DNA from: Prochloraceae cyanobacterium
GTDB taxonomy: Bacteria > Cyanobacteriota > Cyanobacteriia > Cyanobacteriales > JASJDA01
NCBI GenBank assembly: GCA_030065755.1
Contig: JASJDA010000047.1
Coordinates: forward strand, 1 to 41,953
Direction of reading: 5' to 3'
DNA length: 41,953 bases
Shown: piece by piece, positions 34,613-41,953 of the stretch
Layout of the letters: each line of letters begins with the position of its first letter
Numbering within the stretch: position 1 is the first letter of the stretch
Position numbers and translations under genes: made by a program
Notes under the pieces: generated by a model
What the model was told of the DNA's origin: nothing
What the model saw: the letters and a program-made list of their open reading frames with translations, nothing else
Database searches by the model: none

Positions 34613-35712
34613 TTAGGTAATAGGTTGGCTTAAGTAGTTAATTTGGTAAAGTTCTTTTTTGCGAAAAGCAGCTCTAATTCTGCCAATTAATTTGCGAGCT
34701 ACAGCTACAATTGCTTTTTTCTTTCCCGCTCGTGGATAAAGATTGTCAAAAAAATCTTTTAAGGAACGATCGAAAGTAATAGCTCTCCAAGCAGCTTGAT
34801 TCAAAATATGTCGGACACGATTATTACCTTGTCGAGTAATGTGCCCTTTACGAGTTGTATCACCACTAGAATATTCAGAGGGAGTTAATCCTGTATAAGA
34901 GAACAGTTGACGCTCATTTTTAAACTGACTCATATTACCTAATTCATTAGAAAGAATACTCGCGATCGAGGACCAATTCCAGGAGCGGAACGATATGTTT
35001 TGTCATGAGAATCTTCACAAGCTTGCTCCCTTAATTTTGACTCAATTTTTTTAATTTGAGTATCGATATTTTGCCACACTTCCCAATAGGTTTCAATTGC
35101 AATTGTTAGTTGAGGAGAAGAAGAAAGTTCGAGAAGTTCTTTGACTAGTTTATGAGACATTTCTCGCCGCTCATCTGAGTTAATTAGACCCATTTGATGG
35201 CACTTCATTCTAATTTTATTTTTGATAGCGCTTCGGTCTTCAACTAGCTGTTGCCGAGTACGAGTGAGCATCCTTTTGTATTCTTCTTCCTCAGTGGGAA
35301 TACGAATTCCTTTTAAGCGACCCACTTCGAGAAGAGTAGCTAGTTTAAGAGCATCTCGTTTATCAGTTTTGACTCGGTTATGAACTGCCACTTCAACACT
35401 AGCAGGATTGACTACTAAATTATTGATGCCTGCAGCGACTAATTTTCTATGTAAGACAAAACCAGAAAAACCGGCTTCATAGGCTGTGTGTATAGTTGCA
35501 GAAGAAAAATAACGTTGCAACTGAGTAGCTAATTTTTCTGGCTCGGCGGAAGTTCGCCATTTCTTAACAACAATGTCTTCAACCCTTGCCACCACTGAAT
35601 AAGTTCTTTTATGAACATCAATTCCTACATAAACTTGCTTTCCGGCATAAGAGTTTTTCAAAGAAGAATTGTTGTTTGTTTCCTGTTTATTATTTGAGAT
35701 ATTGGTGGCCAT
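34613..35712 (-). pseudogene. IS110-family transposase, broken by one frameshift
   Basis: The N-terminal part (from ATG 35712, MATNISNNKQ) carries the DEDD RuvC-like domain: VGIDVHKRTYSVV, AYEAGFSGF and TDKRDA. The C-terminal part (34613-34933) has FSYTGLTPSEYSSGDTTRKGHITRQGNNRVRHILNQAAW, with the Ser-containing transposase-20 motif. They are in different frames. Around 34966-34972 the text APGIGP should continue as ASILSNELGNMSQF, which is in the next frame, so one base has been lost beside a CGATCGCG site. The protein is therefore split and probably inactive. Its start overlaps the end of the four-helix-bundle pseudogene by 23 bases. Confidence 0.88.
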
Positions 35713-36098
35713 ATTCCTTGCCTCCTTCTTTTTGATTTTTAATGAAGCGACAGTAGCCATTGAGATTTTTTTCAATTTTCTGTTTCAGCTTACGACTCCA
35801 ATCGAGTTGTGCTTCTGTACAATAGCCAAGAGTCTCGGCAATGATAAAGGCACTTAAAGTTTCAGATAAAGAGCCACGTGCTATATACAAAAAACGTAAG
35901 CGGTCAAGATAATGATAACGTCCGTAGCCTTCGGCGATATTTAGTGAAATGCTGCAAGCAGCGGAAGCGCAATTGGTCACTTAAATTGTAACGTTCATAT
36001 GGAGGTAATTTTGCTGCTAATTTATAAGATGCTTTGATCAGTTTTAAACTACCTTGATAGAACTCTAAAGTTTCAAAACCTCTTTCTTTTTCTTCCAT
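35690..36098 (-). pseudogene. Four-helix-bundle (S23/bAvd-like) protein, frameshifted
   Basis: The first frame (35904-36098) reads FETLEFYQGSLKLIKASYKL ... LPPYERYNLSDQLR. The second (35690-35980) continues SISLNIAEGYGRYHYLDRLRFL ... ARGSLSETLSAFIIAE. Together they give the full 23S-rRNA-intervening-sequence/four-helix-bundle family signature (E-Y---L-L, P--E-Y-LSDQLRRA--SI-LNIAEG). The frame breaks just after SDQLR, near 35965-35975. Members are small helical proteins, some nucleic-acid-binding; function is mostly unknown. It runs into the IS110 transposase start. Confidence 0.82.
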
Positions 36099-36281: not shown

Positions 36282-37541
36282 TTACTGTTGACTGTTGACT
36301 GATTTAAGAGCCTCTGCGTATCGTTTAAAACCAAAGATAGCTAAATCTTCAGGGTATTGAGATCGTAAATAGTCAGCAAACTTTTCTAAGCGTTCTAAGC
36401 AGGCTTTGCTCCACACAGACGATCGCATTCCTACCGATTCAACGGAGATTACTTTAACATTTTTAAGAGATGGGGTGTCTTGCCTAATCTCGACGATTTC
36501 ATCTGGGTGGCGATCGATAACTTGGGCAATTACTTTCTTGTTGAGAGTAGCATCTAACAGCACCGTAAAACCGAGCGCTTTGAGTATTTCGGTAACACGG
36601 TGATTGGGGGTGGTAATTTTAAGCTTGATGCCATCGTGGGTAAAGCAGATTCTTAAAGCTCCAGATTCGAGTCCAGCCCAGATTTTTAATAGTGGTTCGA
36701 GCCAGTTAGCGTAGATGGTGCTTAGGGTCTGATTGCTTTTGTGGGATGCTTCTCGACAAGAAACCCTGTTAGCTGTTTTTGCAGCATTGCGCCATTTTTT
36801 GTCGATCGCATTAGGATCCACTATATCGGTAGGTTGAGAAATGACTCCTGTGGGCTGAGTTTCTAAGATAGCTGCAAGTAGGTCAATAATATTCTCTGGC
36901 GGTTTCCCTAGAAGTTTAATTAATTCGTCGTGGTTGATGCCAAATCGATCTCCTACGCCTTCTGGAAACGATCCTTCTAAAATGGTTCTGAGAATGTTGA
37001 GAGGTTTTAGTTGGGAGAATAAATCTGGGTAATTAGTAGCGATCGTCATCATTTGACGATCGAAATCGCTCAGTTTGGCTTCTATGCTTTGTATTCCAGT
37101 CAAGGATTTGCCAGCTTCTTCAATGTAAGCCCAGTTGTTAGAATAATCCCAGAAACTGCTAACTTGATTTCCTTCGTCAGTGTCCTCTAAAGAATTAGTT
37201 TCAGGTTCGGGTAAAGAAGTTAGATGGGCTCTGACGTATTCCTCTTGCAGAGTAGAAATTCTTTGTGCCCTATATCCAAATCCCTCGCCTTCAAATACGC
37301 TGCACCTAGCAGAATTACTATTTTTACTGGTCTTTTCAACGTGGTGAATGCAACTAGCGCAAATAGCATTTGGAGCATCGGTGTCAGTTAACTCTGCGTG
37401 CCAACCTTGTAGGAGTTTCGCATTGACAAAAAATAGGAAATATGTATGCAGCGATCGCTGATTAGTTTGAGACGATCGCTGATTAGTTTGAGACGATCGC
37501 TGATTAGTTTGAGACGATCGCTGATTGATTTGAGACGATCG
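36282..37541 (-). CDS. Hypothetical protein with no normal start codon
   Basis: The well-formed part is 36282-37103 (273 residues from a TTG). The same frame stays open upstream to a stop at 37542-37544, giving about 145 more residues, among them APNAICASCIHHVEK and SARCSVFEGEGFGYRAQR, which have Cys-x-x-Cys spacing and look like real protein. There is no ATG or GTG in this upstream part; it begins inside a 21-bp tandem HIP1 array. So the 5' end was probably replaced or eroded. No family was recognised. The C-terminal half has LRICFTHDGIKLKITTPNHRVTEILKALGF and ends SQYPEDLAIFGFKRYAEALK. Confidence 0.55.
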   Translation of the reverse strand, partial: RSSQINQRSSQTNQRSSQTNQRSSQTNQRSLHTYFLFFVNAKLLQGWHAELTDTDAPNAICASCIHHVEKTSKNSNSARCSVFEGEGFGYRAQRISTLQEEYVRAHLTSLPEPETNSLEDTDEGNQVSSFWDYSNNWAYIEEAGKSLTGIQSIEAKLSDFDRQMMTIATNYPDLFSQLKPLNILRTILEGSFPEGVGDRFGINHDELIKLLGKPPENIIDLLAAILETQPTGVISQPTDIVDPNAIDKKWRNAAKTANRVSCREASHKSNQTLSTIYANWLEPLLKIWAGLESGALRICFTHDGIKLKITTPNHRVTEILKALGFTVLLDATLNKKVIAQVIDRHPDEIVEIRQDTPSLKNVKVISVESVGMRSSVWSKACLERLEKFADYLRSQYPEDLAIFGFKRYAEALKSVNSQQ

Positions 37542-37619
37542 TTAATTGATTTGAAGCGATCGTTAATTGATTGGAGGCGATCGCTGATTGATTTGAGACG
37601 ATCGTTAATTGATTTGAGG
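37451..37619. repeat. 21-bp tandem repeat, eight units each with a HIP1 core
   Basis: The unit is cgatcgctgattagtttgaga, with variants (cgatcgttaattgatttgaga). The CGATCG cores start at 37452, 37473, 37494, 37515, 37536, 37557, 37578 and 37599, exactly 21 bases apart. Because 21 is a multiple of three, it creates heptad-like open frames on both strands (LKSINDR; RSLIDLR). Confidence 0.9.
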
Positions 37620-37786
37620 GAATTGCTCACTAATTGCTAACAATTAGTGAGGGGGAAATTTTCAGTAATAAACTGTCTAGCCACTTCTATATACAAATTT
37701 CTTTGCACTTCATACCAGTTGTCAATTGTTTTTTTAACTCTCATTAATTCGAGTTGACAAAACGCTCGAAGAGCTGGGAGAAATTA

Positions 37787-37874
37787 TTATTTTTATAGAG
37801 AGAGCCTTTTTACAATAACTTTCGGGACTAGCGGCATAACTATATACTATGAAAGGCTCTCTCTATAAAAATAA
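37787..37874. mobile_element. Hairpin element A (88 bp)
   Basis: Perfect 23-bp inverted arms (37787-37809 and 37852-37874; arm core tatagagagagccttt) around a 42-base loop with two ataact motifs (caataactttcggg and cataactatat). It interrupts the C-terminal coding part of the transposase between THIFC and LRAFCQLEL; the translated stop FHSI lies inside the element. Same family as B, C1 and C2. Confidence 0.75.
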
Positions 37875-38685
37875 AAGAACATTCCATACAAAAAATATGA
37901 GTAATAATAGCTGGGGGTTTTCTCACAAAAAATTTATTAAGATTGCATAATTGTTTTAAAGCCCGATGATAGACTTCAATACCCCAATGTATAGCAAATA
38001 ATTCTCTAAAATCTGACCTATTAGCTTCTTTTAATTCTTTTTCATCTATAAAAAATAAAGCATAATAATGAGTATTTCCGACGCGCGAAAACTCTCTTAA
38101 ATACTTTAACTTTGCCAAAATTTTTTAGTTCTACTATCAAACCATCATCAGGAATATCTAGAGAATCTATTCTCACATATTTTTCTTTGTTTATGCGAAC
38201 TGAACGGTTTTTCGCTAATCCAACGCCAAAATTAAGTCCTTTGTCTCTAAAAAACTTAAGATTTTGTTTCGATGAATACCAACTGTCAGTAGTTATAGCT
38301 TCTGCTTTAATTCCCCACTCACTAACTTCATCAACCATCTCCCTTAAATAATCGTTTTTTGTTTTTCCATCTGGTTTATTATAAATTCGATAATTAACGG
38401 GTACGCTAACTCCATTTACATCAGTATAATACAAAGTTATTAAGTTGATACCTTTAATTGCTTTCTGATGTTTGCCAGACCAATAATAGCCAATAAATTC
38501 GGAATTATTAAGATTACTATAAAGCTTTTCTATAACGGTATCATCACCACTTAATGTGCCGCCTATTAAGTTAATATAAGCCTTATTTTCTGAAAATAAA
38601 TCAAATGGTTCATATCTTTCTCTCTCTAAGAAGCGGTTAACTGAATGGTGAGAAATATCAAAAATTTCTAGCCATGCAATGATTC

Positions 38686-38770
38686 TATTTTTTATAAAGT
38701 ACCCCTCTTTTACCAATAACCTATCCCACCAACCGATAACCTACCGATAAGGGGTACTTTATAAAAAATA
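38686..38770. mobile_element. Hairpin element B (85 bp)
   Basis: Perfect 21-bp arms (38686-38706 and 38750-38770; core tataaagtacccct). Read on the minus strand, the 43-base loop is tatcggtaggttatcggttg followed by gtgggataggttattgg, which matches the C2 loop except that both ataact motifs are taggtt. It interrupts the N-terminal coding part of the same transposase. Confidence 0.75.
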
Positions 38771-38826
38771 AATACATCGGTCGCCAATCGGTTACACCCA
38801 CCATATTTGGGTTCAGCAGTAGAATA

Positions 38827-38914
38827 TATTTATATTAAGGGAAGTCCTCAATTTGCAGTTAAGTTAAAAACGAAGCAGATAAGTTATCGTAAAGGACTTC
38901 CCTTAATATAAATA
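38827..38914. mobile_element. Hairpin element C1 (88 bp) with 5-bp flanking repeat
   Basis: 22-bp arms (38827-38848 and 38893-38914; core ttaagggaagtcct). The minus-strand loop starts ttacgataacttatctgctt, as in C2. It is flanked by AATAT on both sides (38823-38827 and 38914-38918, sharing the outermost pair). Taking out the element and one AATAT rejoins the transposase frame. Confidence 0.8.
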
Positions 38915-38953
38915 ATATCCCTCAAAAATCCTGTATAAATATTTAGATCGCAT

Positions 38954-39119
38954 TTAGCAGTAGACGGCTTCTTTCTTACTCTTATGGCAAATATCTCCCG
39001 CTCGCTCTATAAATTATCCTAACTTTACAAGTCGATCGAGTGTTGACAATTAGCGATCGCTTCCTAATACACATTTTCAGAAATCTGTCAATGCGAAACT
39101 CCTAGGCAATATTCCAGAA
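38954..39119. other. Spacer between transposase start and desaturase remnant
   Basis: AT-rich with HIP1 cores near 39031 and 39053. The desaturase frame is open back to a stop at 39051-39053 and reads FQKSVNAKLLGNIPE before the ATG at 39120, so coding similarity may begin before the nominal start. Confidence 0.4.
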
Positions 39120-39821
39120 ATGGAAAGATGCGCTCACGTAGGAATACACCACGCAGAAAACAATAACGATCGAGACAATCTATCTACTCTTCAGTACGAT
39201 CGCACCAACTTGTTCCACTTCCTCAAATACGTCTTATATAACTGTTTTTGGCATAATAGCGGTGTTGGTCCTTTAGTATACTTCTACAAAAACCAAAAAT
39301 GGAAGCTTTTTCGCCAGATGGCTACAGGCTTCATCTTTTTTTACGGTATATTAGGTGTTTTTCTCGCTGTTGACTGGCGGTTTGCGTTGGTGTATTTGGT
39401 TTTGCCACACTTAACGCACAATGCACTCAACGCCTTTTTAAACTGGACTTGGCATATTTTCAGCGATCCCGATCGCTCAGAAAACTATTACGCTAGCGCA
39501 ATAACTTTAATAGAAGACGAGGATGACTTCCTCTTTGAAAACTATCATCTCAGCCATCACTTAAATCCTTCCGGACATTGGAGTGAAAATGGCCTTCATT
39601 TCCAAGAACAGCAAGATTTGTATAGGGAAAAAGAGGCGATGGTCTTTCGCAATATAAATCTTAAAGACCTTTTCGTGCTAACTACGCGATCGACTCGTCT
39701 TGAGATTCTGGCGAAATCGTACGTGGATCTCACCAATAAACTCAGCCACGAGGAGATAGTCGAACTATTAAAAAAACGTGCCAGTCCCGTCAAATCTCAG
39801 CATCAAAGACAATTTACCTAA
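39120..39821 (+). pseudogene. Membrane fatty-acid desaturase/hydroxylase, N-terminally truncated
   Basis: 233 residues. Two His clusters are present: HVGIHHAENN near the start and ENYHLSHHLNP near 140. Two or three hydrophobic segments lie between them (FRQMATGFIFFYGILGVFLAV, FALVYLVLPHLTHNALNAFL). Membrane desaturases and hydroxylases normally have three His boxes and about 100 more residues in front, so the first box and first helices are missing. Upstream sequence reaches a stop within 70 bases. It directly precedes a polyketide-synthase gene on the same strand, the usual company of lipid-modifying enzymes, so the pair was probably one lipid pathway. Confidence 0.7.
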
Positions 39822-39886
39822 CTTCTAAGATTTTTCTTTAAATAAGTTAGAAAAAAATTCTGCCTAAACTGATACAGGATAAGAAA

Positions 39887-41120
39887 ATGGTATCAAAAAC
39901 AACTAAAGAAATTAATTCATCCCTGCAACGAACTCCGATCGCTATTGTCGGGATGGCATCCATTTTTCCCCAAGCCAAAAATATGCGGGAATATTGGGAG
40001 AATATACTAAATAAAGTAGATTGTATTACTGACATACCCTCTTCCCATTGGAATGTAGAAGATTACTACGATCCCGATCCCAAAGCACGAGACAAGACCT
40101 ACTGCAAAAGAGGTGGGTTCATCCCCAAAATTGACTTTAATTCTTTAGAATTTGGGTTGCCACCTAATCTCCTAGAAGTAACTGATGTTTCCCAAATCCT
40201 GTCTTTGATTGTTGCTAAAAAGGCAATGGAAGATGCAAACTATGGAGAATCTCGACAATTTGCTAGAGATCGGGTTGGGGTAATTTTAGGCGCAGCAGCT
40301 ATGGGAGCGCAAATGAGTCATCCCTACCGCGCTAGATTAGAGTCTCCTACGTGGAGAAAAGTCCTCAAAAGCAGTGGAGTCTCTGACGAGGATGCGGAAA
40401 AGATTATTGATAAAGTTAAATCAGCTTATGTAGAGTGGCAAGAAAACTCCTTCCCTGGAATGTTGAGCAATATTGTTGCAGGAAGAATTGCCAACAGACT
40501 AAATTTAGGAGGAATTAACTGCACCCTCGATGCAGCCTGTGCTAGTTCTCTAGCAGCATTGAAAATGGCTATCTCTCAGTTGCTAGAAGGCCGTTGCGAT
40601 GCGATGCTTACTGGAGGCGTAGATCTCGACAATACTGTTTTTGCCTACCTGTGTTTTAGTAAAACCCCTGCTATTTCTAGAAAACAGCAAATCAGACCCT
40701 TTGATATAGATGGCGACGGCATGCTTCTAGGAGAAGGAATCGGCATGATGGTTATCAAACGCCTTGAGGATGCACGACGAGACGGGGATAGAATTTATGC
40801 ATTGTCAAAAGGTAGTAGAAGAACTGCGATCGGATGCTGGAGAAAAATCTTACGCCCAATTAGTCGAGCAGTGCAAGTCCGTCGAAATCCCCCAGACTGC
40901 AGCTAGAGTAGGATTTATTTCCAACTCCTTGGAAGAAGCTGCCAGCCAATTAGAAACAGCGATAGAATTACTCAAAACTCAGTCAGGGGAACAATGGGAA
41001 CATCCCCAAGGTATTTACTACCGTCAATACGGAATCGATCTTAAAGGGAAAGTAGTGGCTTTATTCCCAGGACAAGGTTCTCAATACTTAGAAATGGGTC
41101 GAGAATTAGCTCTAAATTTC
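39887..41120 (+). pseudogene. Type I polyketide synthase (HglE/PfaA-like), internally deleted and interrupted
   Basis: Frame 1 (39887-40801) is a ketosynthase N-terminal part: IAIVGMASIFPQAKNMREYW, active-site C218 in CTLDAACASSLAALKMA, and FDIDGDGMLLGEGIGMMVIKRLEDA. At about 40800 it jumps to another frame: QKVVEELRSDAGEKSYAQLV ... VALFPGQGSQYLEMGRELAL, the linker and start of an acyltransferase domain (GQGSQ). The rest of the KS with its two catalytic His residues is missing, so several hundred bases were deleted out of frame. At 41120 the acyltransferase is cut by a TnpB-type element. Such synthases make heterocyst glycolipid or PUFA-like chains. Confidence 0.85.
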
Positions 41121-41293
41121 GTGACGTACTCCCACACTGAATTCTTCGATTACAGTGTGGGCTTCTCAACCTCTCGATTGAGCATTCCTGCGTTGCACTT
41201 ACCTAGGCGATTTGCCCCCGATAGTACGCAGTCAGCAGGCAGTTTCCGTTCCCGCACGAGAGCGCGGTACTACATTATTTTCACGGAAAGTAC
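41121..41293 (-). mobile_element. Right end and omega-RNA-like region of an IS605-type TnpB element
   Basis: On the minus strand the tail reads gcaacgcaggaatgctcaat, then cgagaggttgagaagcccac, ending with a palindrome cccacactg (41131-41139) / cagtgtggg (41153-41161) and gtacgtcac at the junction with the polyketide-synthase gene. Hairpin, GC content and position after tnpB fit the element's right end and the 3' scaffold of its guide RNA. The guide would be copied from the synthase sequence next to 41120. Confidence 0.6.
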
Positions 41294-41382
41294 TATTTAT
41301 ATTAAGGGAAGTCCTTATCGATAACTTATCTGTTGGTGACTATAACTTTTCTGCTTTATGAGGACTTCCCTTAATATAAATA
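41294..41382. mobile_element. Hairpin element C2 (89 bp)
   Basis: 22-bp perfect arms (41294-41315 and 41361-41382), identical in sequence to those of C1 but in the opposite orientation. The loop is tatcgataacttatctgttg, then gtgactataacttttctgct. It sits between the tnpB coding end (VIKQRGLE) and the element's right end, so the last tnpB codons (IYIKGSPHKAEKL) come from the hairpin. No clean flanking duplication. Confidence 0.75.
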
Positions 41383-41953
41383 TATTCGAGACCACGCTGT
41401 TTTATTACTTGGGCTGATGCAATATCCCTGGTAGTTGAGTAACCGCATTCAGAGCAATTATGCCCTCGTTCACTTAAATCTTTTTTACCTGTATGCGCGC
41501 CACAATGAGGGCATATTTGAGAGGTATATTTGTGGTCTACCTCGGCAAAATATTTTCCTCTTTTCCAACACACCCAAGATAATAAAGTTCTAAATTGCCC
41601 AAAACTAGCATCAAACATATTTTTGCCCAAGAAACCTTTAGCGCTTACTCTATAGTCTATATCTTCCACAAATATCATATCTGCATGGTCACACAATTCG
41701 TGAGCCACTTGTAGATGAAAATTATGCACGAGTATTAGCTATTTTGTGGTGCAACTTAGCAACTTTGACTTGTGCTTTTTCGTAGTTTTTAGACCTCTTA
41801 TTCTTTCTACTAGCTTTACTTTGTAGCGATTTCAGCTCACTTTGTAAGTCGAGGAAAAAACGAGCAGGTCTTACTTTGAAACCGTCAGAAGTTGTGAGAA
41901 AGTTTTCAAGCCCAATGTCAATTCCTATTGCTCGACCGTAAGGAATAACATCA
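41383..41953 (-). pseudogene. TnpB (IS605 OrfB) C-terminal half, frameshifted, runs off the window
   Basis: From the window edge the minus strand reads IPYGRAIGIDIGLENFLTTS (RuvC-I Asp), then a Lys-rich helix ending KLHHKIANTRA and a stop near 41728. One base is missing there; the next frame continues NFHLQVAHELCDHADMIFVE (RuvC-II Glu), then CPHCGAHTGKKDLSERGHNCSEC (four-Cys zinc ribbon) and TTRDIASAQV (RuvC-III Asp). All three nuclease acids are present, but the frameshift splits the protein. TnpB is the RNA-guided nuclease ancestor of Cas12. The N-terminus and left end lie outside the window. Confidence 0.88.

Follow-up and report, generated by a model that had tools for sequence, protein, structure and literature searches.

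The 41,953-nt contig analyzed here from a Prochloraceae cyanobacterium (JASJDA010000047.1; hereafter the window, meaning the whole stretch) carries four short hairpins whose arms differ in sequence, while each arm pairs perfectly with its partner. The locus raises the question of whether these hairpins belong to one family, and what sort of element keeps the pairing of its arms rather than their sequence.

Four hairpins and the family around them

An exact search bore out the positions, perfect arms and lengths that an earlier note had given for the hairpins (A, 88; B, 85; C1, 88; and C2, 89 bp; Table 1). Hairpin A lies 3′ of a DDE transposase ORF and C2 at the 3′ end of a TnpB gene. Hairpin B interrupts a DDE transposase gene that is uninterrupted in a homologue (L068, from a looser empty-site listing outside the strict set of 28 described below). 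Target repeats were looked for at A and C1 and none was recognized; a comparison of C2 with plasmids and phages gave no match. The window also contains tandem repeats at 37450-37620, with GCGATCGCTGATTAGTTTGA-like units seen in the sequence, and an IS110-type transposase ORF (DEDD_Tnp_IS110; 34939-35775, minus strand) close to the hairpin cluster.

Table 1. Coordinates of the hairpins and adjoining features in the window
Feature	Positions	Strand	Remarks
Transposase ORF (DDE_5, DDE_Tnp_1) split by B	38042..38716	-	
Hairpin A	37787..37874	+	perfect 23-bp arms, 42-nt loop; family membership by model
Element B target repeat GCCA, left copy	38671..38674	.	
Element B left end, outside arm	38675..38685	.	
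Hairpin B	38686..38770	-	perfect 21-bp arms, 43-nt loop
Element B right end, outside arm	38771..38782	.	
Element B target repeat GCCA, right copy	38783..38786	.	
Hairpin C1	38827..38914	-	perfect 22-bp arms, 44-nt loop
C2 possible target repeat CAC, left copy	41282..41284	.	3 bp only, chance possible
Hairpin C2	41294..41382	+	perfect 22-bp arms, 45-nt loop
C2 possible target repeat CAC, right copy	41393..41395	.	3 bp only, chance possible
TnpB C-terminal part (Cas12f1-like TNB domain) adjoining C2	41340..41729	-	

The earlier note had read all four loops as homologous. Within the window alone this holds for two pairs: when the window hairpins were compared against 1000 dinucleotide-preserving shuffles, the likeness of C1 to C2 and of B to C2 exceeded every shuffle, whereas the other four pairs did not beat them, with scores as high in 794 (A-B), 95 (A-C1), 195 (A-C2) and 222 (B-C1) of the 1000. 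A covariance model of 30 family copies, which included B and left out A, C1 and C2, nevertheless detected A (E 3.2e-9), C1 (E 1e-15) and C2 (E 2.5e-15) in the window. Hairpin A, weak in the window-only comparison, is thus counted as a member because a model built without it finds it.

The family is large in the host genome. A model from eight copies returned at least 148 rows at E values up to 0.1 among the best 150 of 2572 first-look candidates scored, and two end-plus-arm patterns gave 94 matches (6 for a backward control) and at least 119 (control, 18). The end patterns also led to 60 additional regions, 36 of which held at least one further copy. Altogether 188 contexts were collected (177 from the host genome, 3 from G001 and 8 from family f20), with perfect arms in 179 and 100 different arm sequences. 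After entries with compatible flanks were merged, the stretches examined in the host genome held 169 distinct copies with 91 arm sequences; arms were perfect in 160 of the 169, a fraction biased upwards because the finder (15 or more net pairs, no more than one mismatch, a minimum loop score) prefers well-paired copies and under-counts poorly paired ones. An earlier set of 145 copies, for which up to two mismatches were allowed and 11 hairpins of other kinds were removed, comprised 137 perfect copies, 6 with one mismatch and 2 with two. The covariance-model search was positive in the host genome, in the same genus and in some other genomes, and it supports the proposal of a family of 80-95-nt hairpins with recognizable loop boxes and covarying, perfectly paired arms, whose copies often lie inside or near transposase genes.

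The mobile unit and its insertion sites

In the host genome the mobile unit is about 110 bp long, and the boundaries first assigned to it are too narrow. From one side to the other it runs through a short end, one arm (about 15-23 bp), the loop, the complementary arm and a second short end. Most loops measure 42-46 nt, and two similar boxes in the loop stand about 21 nt from each other. Beyond each arm some 11-13 bp more belong to the element, and there likeness stops. Direct repeats of at least 3 bp flank the unit in 68/133 copies (mean 19.3, maximum 31 in 500 flank re-pairings) and repeats of at least 4 bp in 33/133 (mean 6.4, maximum 13); in 65 of the 133 there is no target repeat at the distances tested. 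Since likeness continues outside the arms and is followed by a target repeat, the arms are internal parts and not ends. The contrast drawn earlier, of an element that keeps its middle and loses its ends, therefore compares the wrong parts: the true ends are of several types, and their variation is no less than that of the loop.

Empty sites complete this description. A homologous site lacking the element was found by automatic criteria for 28 of 196 joined-flank queries, 13 of them from Moorena and 15 from elsewhere; under assumed ends, 11 of the 13 Moorena sites show a net 2-base duplication. The element inserts precisely, as a unit of about 110 bp flanked by a short target repeat. Empty homologues include TnpB genes and initiator-tRNA-like genes. 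Two copies of the latter are interrupted (L025 and L049), with gene halves that overlap by 4-5 bases. Self-splicing was considered for them and set aside, since an element-free copy exists on C427 (88% identity) and splicing is not needed. B and L001 were likewise considered as one site with two sets of arms, which is ruled out by their differing far flanks.

Other copies are nested, inside the loop or arm of another copy (L118, L059, L077, L097, L016, L034 and L119), several of them at one recurrent loop position. At one locus (L090:1-1686, minus strand) a 562-aa ORF runs uninterrupted through one hairpin; its telomere resolvase (ResT/TelK) catalytic domain (E 5.5e-29) is unusual for a cyanobacterium.

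Could the hairpins instead be structured RNAs or regulatory hairpins, selected at each site and spread by duplication? A covarying stem and recognizable loop boxes would suit such a role, as would the long ORFs that in some cases run uninterrupted through a copy. The many unrelated sites, the target repeats, the empty homologues and the copies within genes and within each other argue against it, as does the lack of any Rfam family at gathering threshold in the window, and we regard this explanation as very improbable.

A DDE origin fits better, though it too appears unlikely. The hairpins would then be ordinary MITEs of a DDE insertion sequence, arms and ends together forming its inverted repeats, and arm diversity would stem from the differing preferences of several transposases. 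In favor are the element's size, its many copies and its short target repeats. So are DDE genes close to some copies: among 97 of the 146 ORFs near copies, 5 match DDE_Tnp_1 and 4 match DDE_5, and a further 9 match OrfB_IS605, as counted without a control ORF set. Against it, the 91 arm sequences of one genome do not follow the end types, and none of the 60 host-genome regions at end-pattern matches showed an autonomous parent or longer element with these ends; the rest of these regions, where inspected, were mostly contig-end cuts, one-ended truncated copies or chance matches. Nor was an autonomous insertion sequence seen among the end-pattern matches examined in G159. A 3.3-kb pair of ends there (L245), considered as one long element, proved to be two separate elements with two ORFs between them, one reverse-transcriptase-like and one TnpB-like as judged by eye from their sequences.

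Arms that change together and a candidate mover

That the arms diverge with their pairing kept, as the earlier note claimed, is confirmed by compensated double changes in excess of shuffles. Eight copies gave 19 double-change cells (5.9 in shuffles, 0/500 as high) and 30 diverse copies gave 99 (26.2 in shuffles, 0/500). In the latter set 95.4% of arm cells pair, and pairings slid by 1-3 columns yield at most 40 double-change cells.

How the arms come to change is harder to read from related sites. A common far flank joins 56 of the 145 copies into 15 clusters, and 89 have no such partner. Where copies have a far flank in common, their arms are mostly identical and their loops differ by a few changes, though the flanks differ, so continual rewriting in place is not demonstrated. 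At related sites, one mirrored arm change separates L103 from L115, and L064 carries a one-sided change. Copying during a move, conversion between copies and repeated insertion at preferred sites are each possible. At each of two different sites, a pair of otherwise nearly identical copies is told apart by one and the same five-change cluster at the loop's 3′ end (L002 and L049 against L006 and L025), as a template switch or conversion would leave. Five further copies (L021, L023, L024, L036 and L087) share an end type and lie inside genes at similar sites; in the first three the flanks diverge more than the elements do, a pattern that suggests a preferred site or conversion.

The explanation that we favor, with confidence slightly above even for it as a whole, is a cyanobacterial family of non-autonomous, REPIN/MITE-like mobile DNA hairpins in which pairing is kept rather than arm sequence. 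The elements would be moved in trans by an enzyme that recognizes their ends and perhaps their fold, and the arms would then need only to pair, a pairing that would hold the two termini of so short an element close to each other. Template switching at the hairpin, which can create and mend perfect stems (PMC8794818), may pass an alteration from one arm to its partner; alternatively, one arm may be copied from the other during a move. Copies that do not pair would fail to move on, letting arm sequence drift as complementarity stays, and inversion between the arms would account for two loop orientations. Pairing is probably maintained by template switching plus selection for the fold. Several results count against the explanation: neither an autonomous parent nor a mobilizing enzyme turned up in the regions examined, one-sided arm changes occur, the outer arm has a weak link to the ends, and 65 of 133 copies have no target repeat at the distances tested.

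Module linkage, computed on 113 sufficiently different copies, gives this family further structure. Differences in the inner arm do not follow the ends (rho 0.002), nor do those in the loop (rho -0.022), and arm and loop show no clear link (0.108; null maximum, 0.125). Linkage is seen between left and right end (0.235) and between outer and inner arm (0.248); between the outer arm and the ends it is weak (rho 0.162; null maximum, 0.068). Relative to the ends, the loop occurs in both orientations (47 versus 39 of 86 copies), and both are also present in Moorena copies. The last bases of the right end partly track the target repeat: CGGTC pairs with GCC in 7/9 copies, CGATC with GTC in 3/7, and CCTTC or CTTTC with GGG in 34/46, and CTCTC occurs with seven different repeats (counts from the 86 of 188 copies with a recognized G-starting repeat, uncorrected for relatedness and without a significance test). 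The element could be seen as a set of exchangeable modules, with structural arms that are re-copied, a loop cassette that flips and end bases that choose the target by match, a picture that we consider rather doubtful.

The same end bases bear on the identity of the enzyme. In a narrower form of the explanation we favor, the elements would be REPIN-like, with a Y1 (HUH) transposase of the IS200/IS605 or RAYT kind moving them as single strands: folding of the strand would put both cleavage sites at the base of the hairpin, and the repeat beside the element would be a target sequence also carried at the element's own end. The partial tracking of the target repeat is in keeping with this, and the terminal 11-13 bp outside the arms are, by eye, not inverted repeats of each other. 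In the host genome 16 matches to Y1 transposases were counted, fragments included and RAYT not distinguished from IS200/IS605 TnpA; 5 of the 16 have a copy within 200 bp, where 0.3-0.5 would be expected for 190-300 copies under uniform placement, itself a poor null. However, the CTCTC end with its seven repeats is what a true target duplication would give. One copy (L208) lies inside a Y1 gene, which makes such genes targets as well; at Moorena loci, two Y1 stretches were found, 2.9 and 5.9 kb from the nearest copy. IS200/IS605 elements, moreover, are not known to make target duplications. We consider movement by a Y1 enzyme a tentative proposal, well short of even.

Distribution and nearest known relatives

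Among 40 relatives, the first model gave rows in 2; these belong to the host genus, and one is the host genome itself. Across the order, with the best 11 or 12 candidates per genome scored, the first model gave rows in 4 of 388 genomes and the second in 19. Inspection of loci found the same plan in 11 of the 388 (G000, G001, G042, G083, G159, G184, G186, G232, G271, G279 and G283) and possibly in G300 and G346, with Moorena represented among the carriers; 6 of the 19 model-positive genomes do not have it. A draw from the phylum gave rows in 4 of 386 genomes, of which the matches in G560 and G007 are not the same element. The loci matched in G007, G124, G164, G192, G257, G364 and G560 hold other hairpins or none. 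Stricter filters applied whenever more than 40 genomes were searched, with 11 or 12 candidates scored in each, so absence there is not proven.

In Moorena, an exact pattern recovered 26 stretches, all from this genus, and 42 of 44 copies have perfect arms, with 16 arm sequences, a diversity that is under-sampled because the pattern used for part of the copies fixes one arm type. End pattern 1 matched 114 times in G159 and 102 times in G083 (controls, 7 and 6), and end pattern 2 matched 56 and 57 times (controls, 6 and 9). By plan, loop length and weak model scores, the Moorena hairpins are likely akin to the host-genome family; the ends and loop boxes of family f20 closely resemble those of the host genome. 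The Moorena-type pattern had no match in viral contigs, and the exact host-type pattern had none in genome_contigs, a collection that may leave out the host genome.

The earlier note knew of no described family of this kind, but REPINs, which go with RAYT transposases, offer a close precedent: their hairpin-forming spacer commonly carries compensatory changes (PMC3116915). Both kinds are non-autonomous mobile hairpins of small size and high copy number that show such changes in their middle part. A REPIN pairs two inverted REP sequences, its ends being conserved and its spacer less so, whereas our hairpins have a loop with recognizable boxes, non-inverted ends and longer perfect arms; no constant tag or paired inverted REP sequences (two inverted GTAG-tagged REPs in REPINs) were seen at the ends, which differ from each other. 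MITEs such as Nezha of cyanobacteria are likewise short, AT-rich and non-autonomous, with target repeats (PMC10969869). The hairpins share with MITEs the short non-autonomous form and the target repeats and lack terminal inverted repeats, their inverted arms being internal; these arms diversify yet stay complementary, and no parent insertion sequence was found in the regions examined. REPINs are nearest in behavior and MITEs nearest in size and target repeat.

Other comparisons are more distant. The GTAG- and CGTC-tagged palindromic repeats include cyanobacterial families, and some families have variable stems or loops, but they are described as 20-40 bp long, with a fixed tetranucleotide tag and, for the most part, very short loops (PMC3733652), whereas our loops are mostly 42-46 nt and carry no constant tag. 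Template-switch RNA hairpins share a replication mechanism that creates and mends perfect stems, but are described for RNA genes and not for a mobile element (PMC8794818). The host-genome family was not found by title or abstract start in the literature searched, to which Elhai et al. 2008 does not belong. The small dispersed repeats of that work are reportedly very small mobile repeats of cyanobacterial genomes, 21-27 nt long; the two may overlap.

With at least 169 copies and 91 arm sequences in one genome, the family constitutes a natural experiment on the upkeep of perfect inverted repeats, in which selection for the fold can be set against template switching. The elements interrupt genes, among them two initiator-tRNA-like copies and transposase genes, and in this way shape the genome; a record of target choice may be kept in their ends. 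If the modular reading were true, movement would be read from the folded strand and the target guide would be carried by the element itself.
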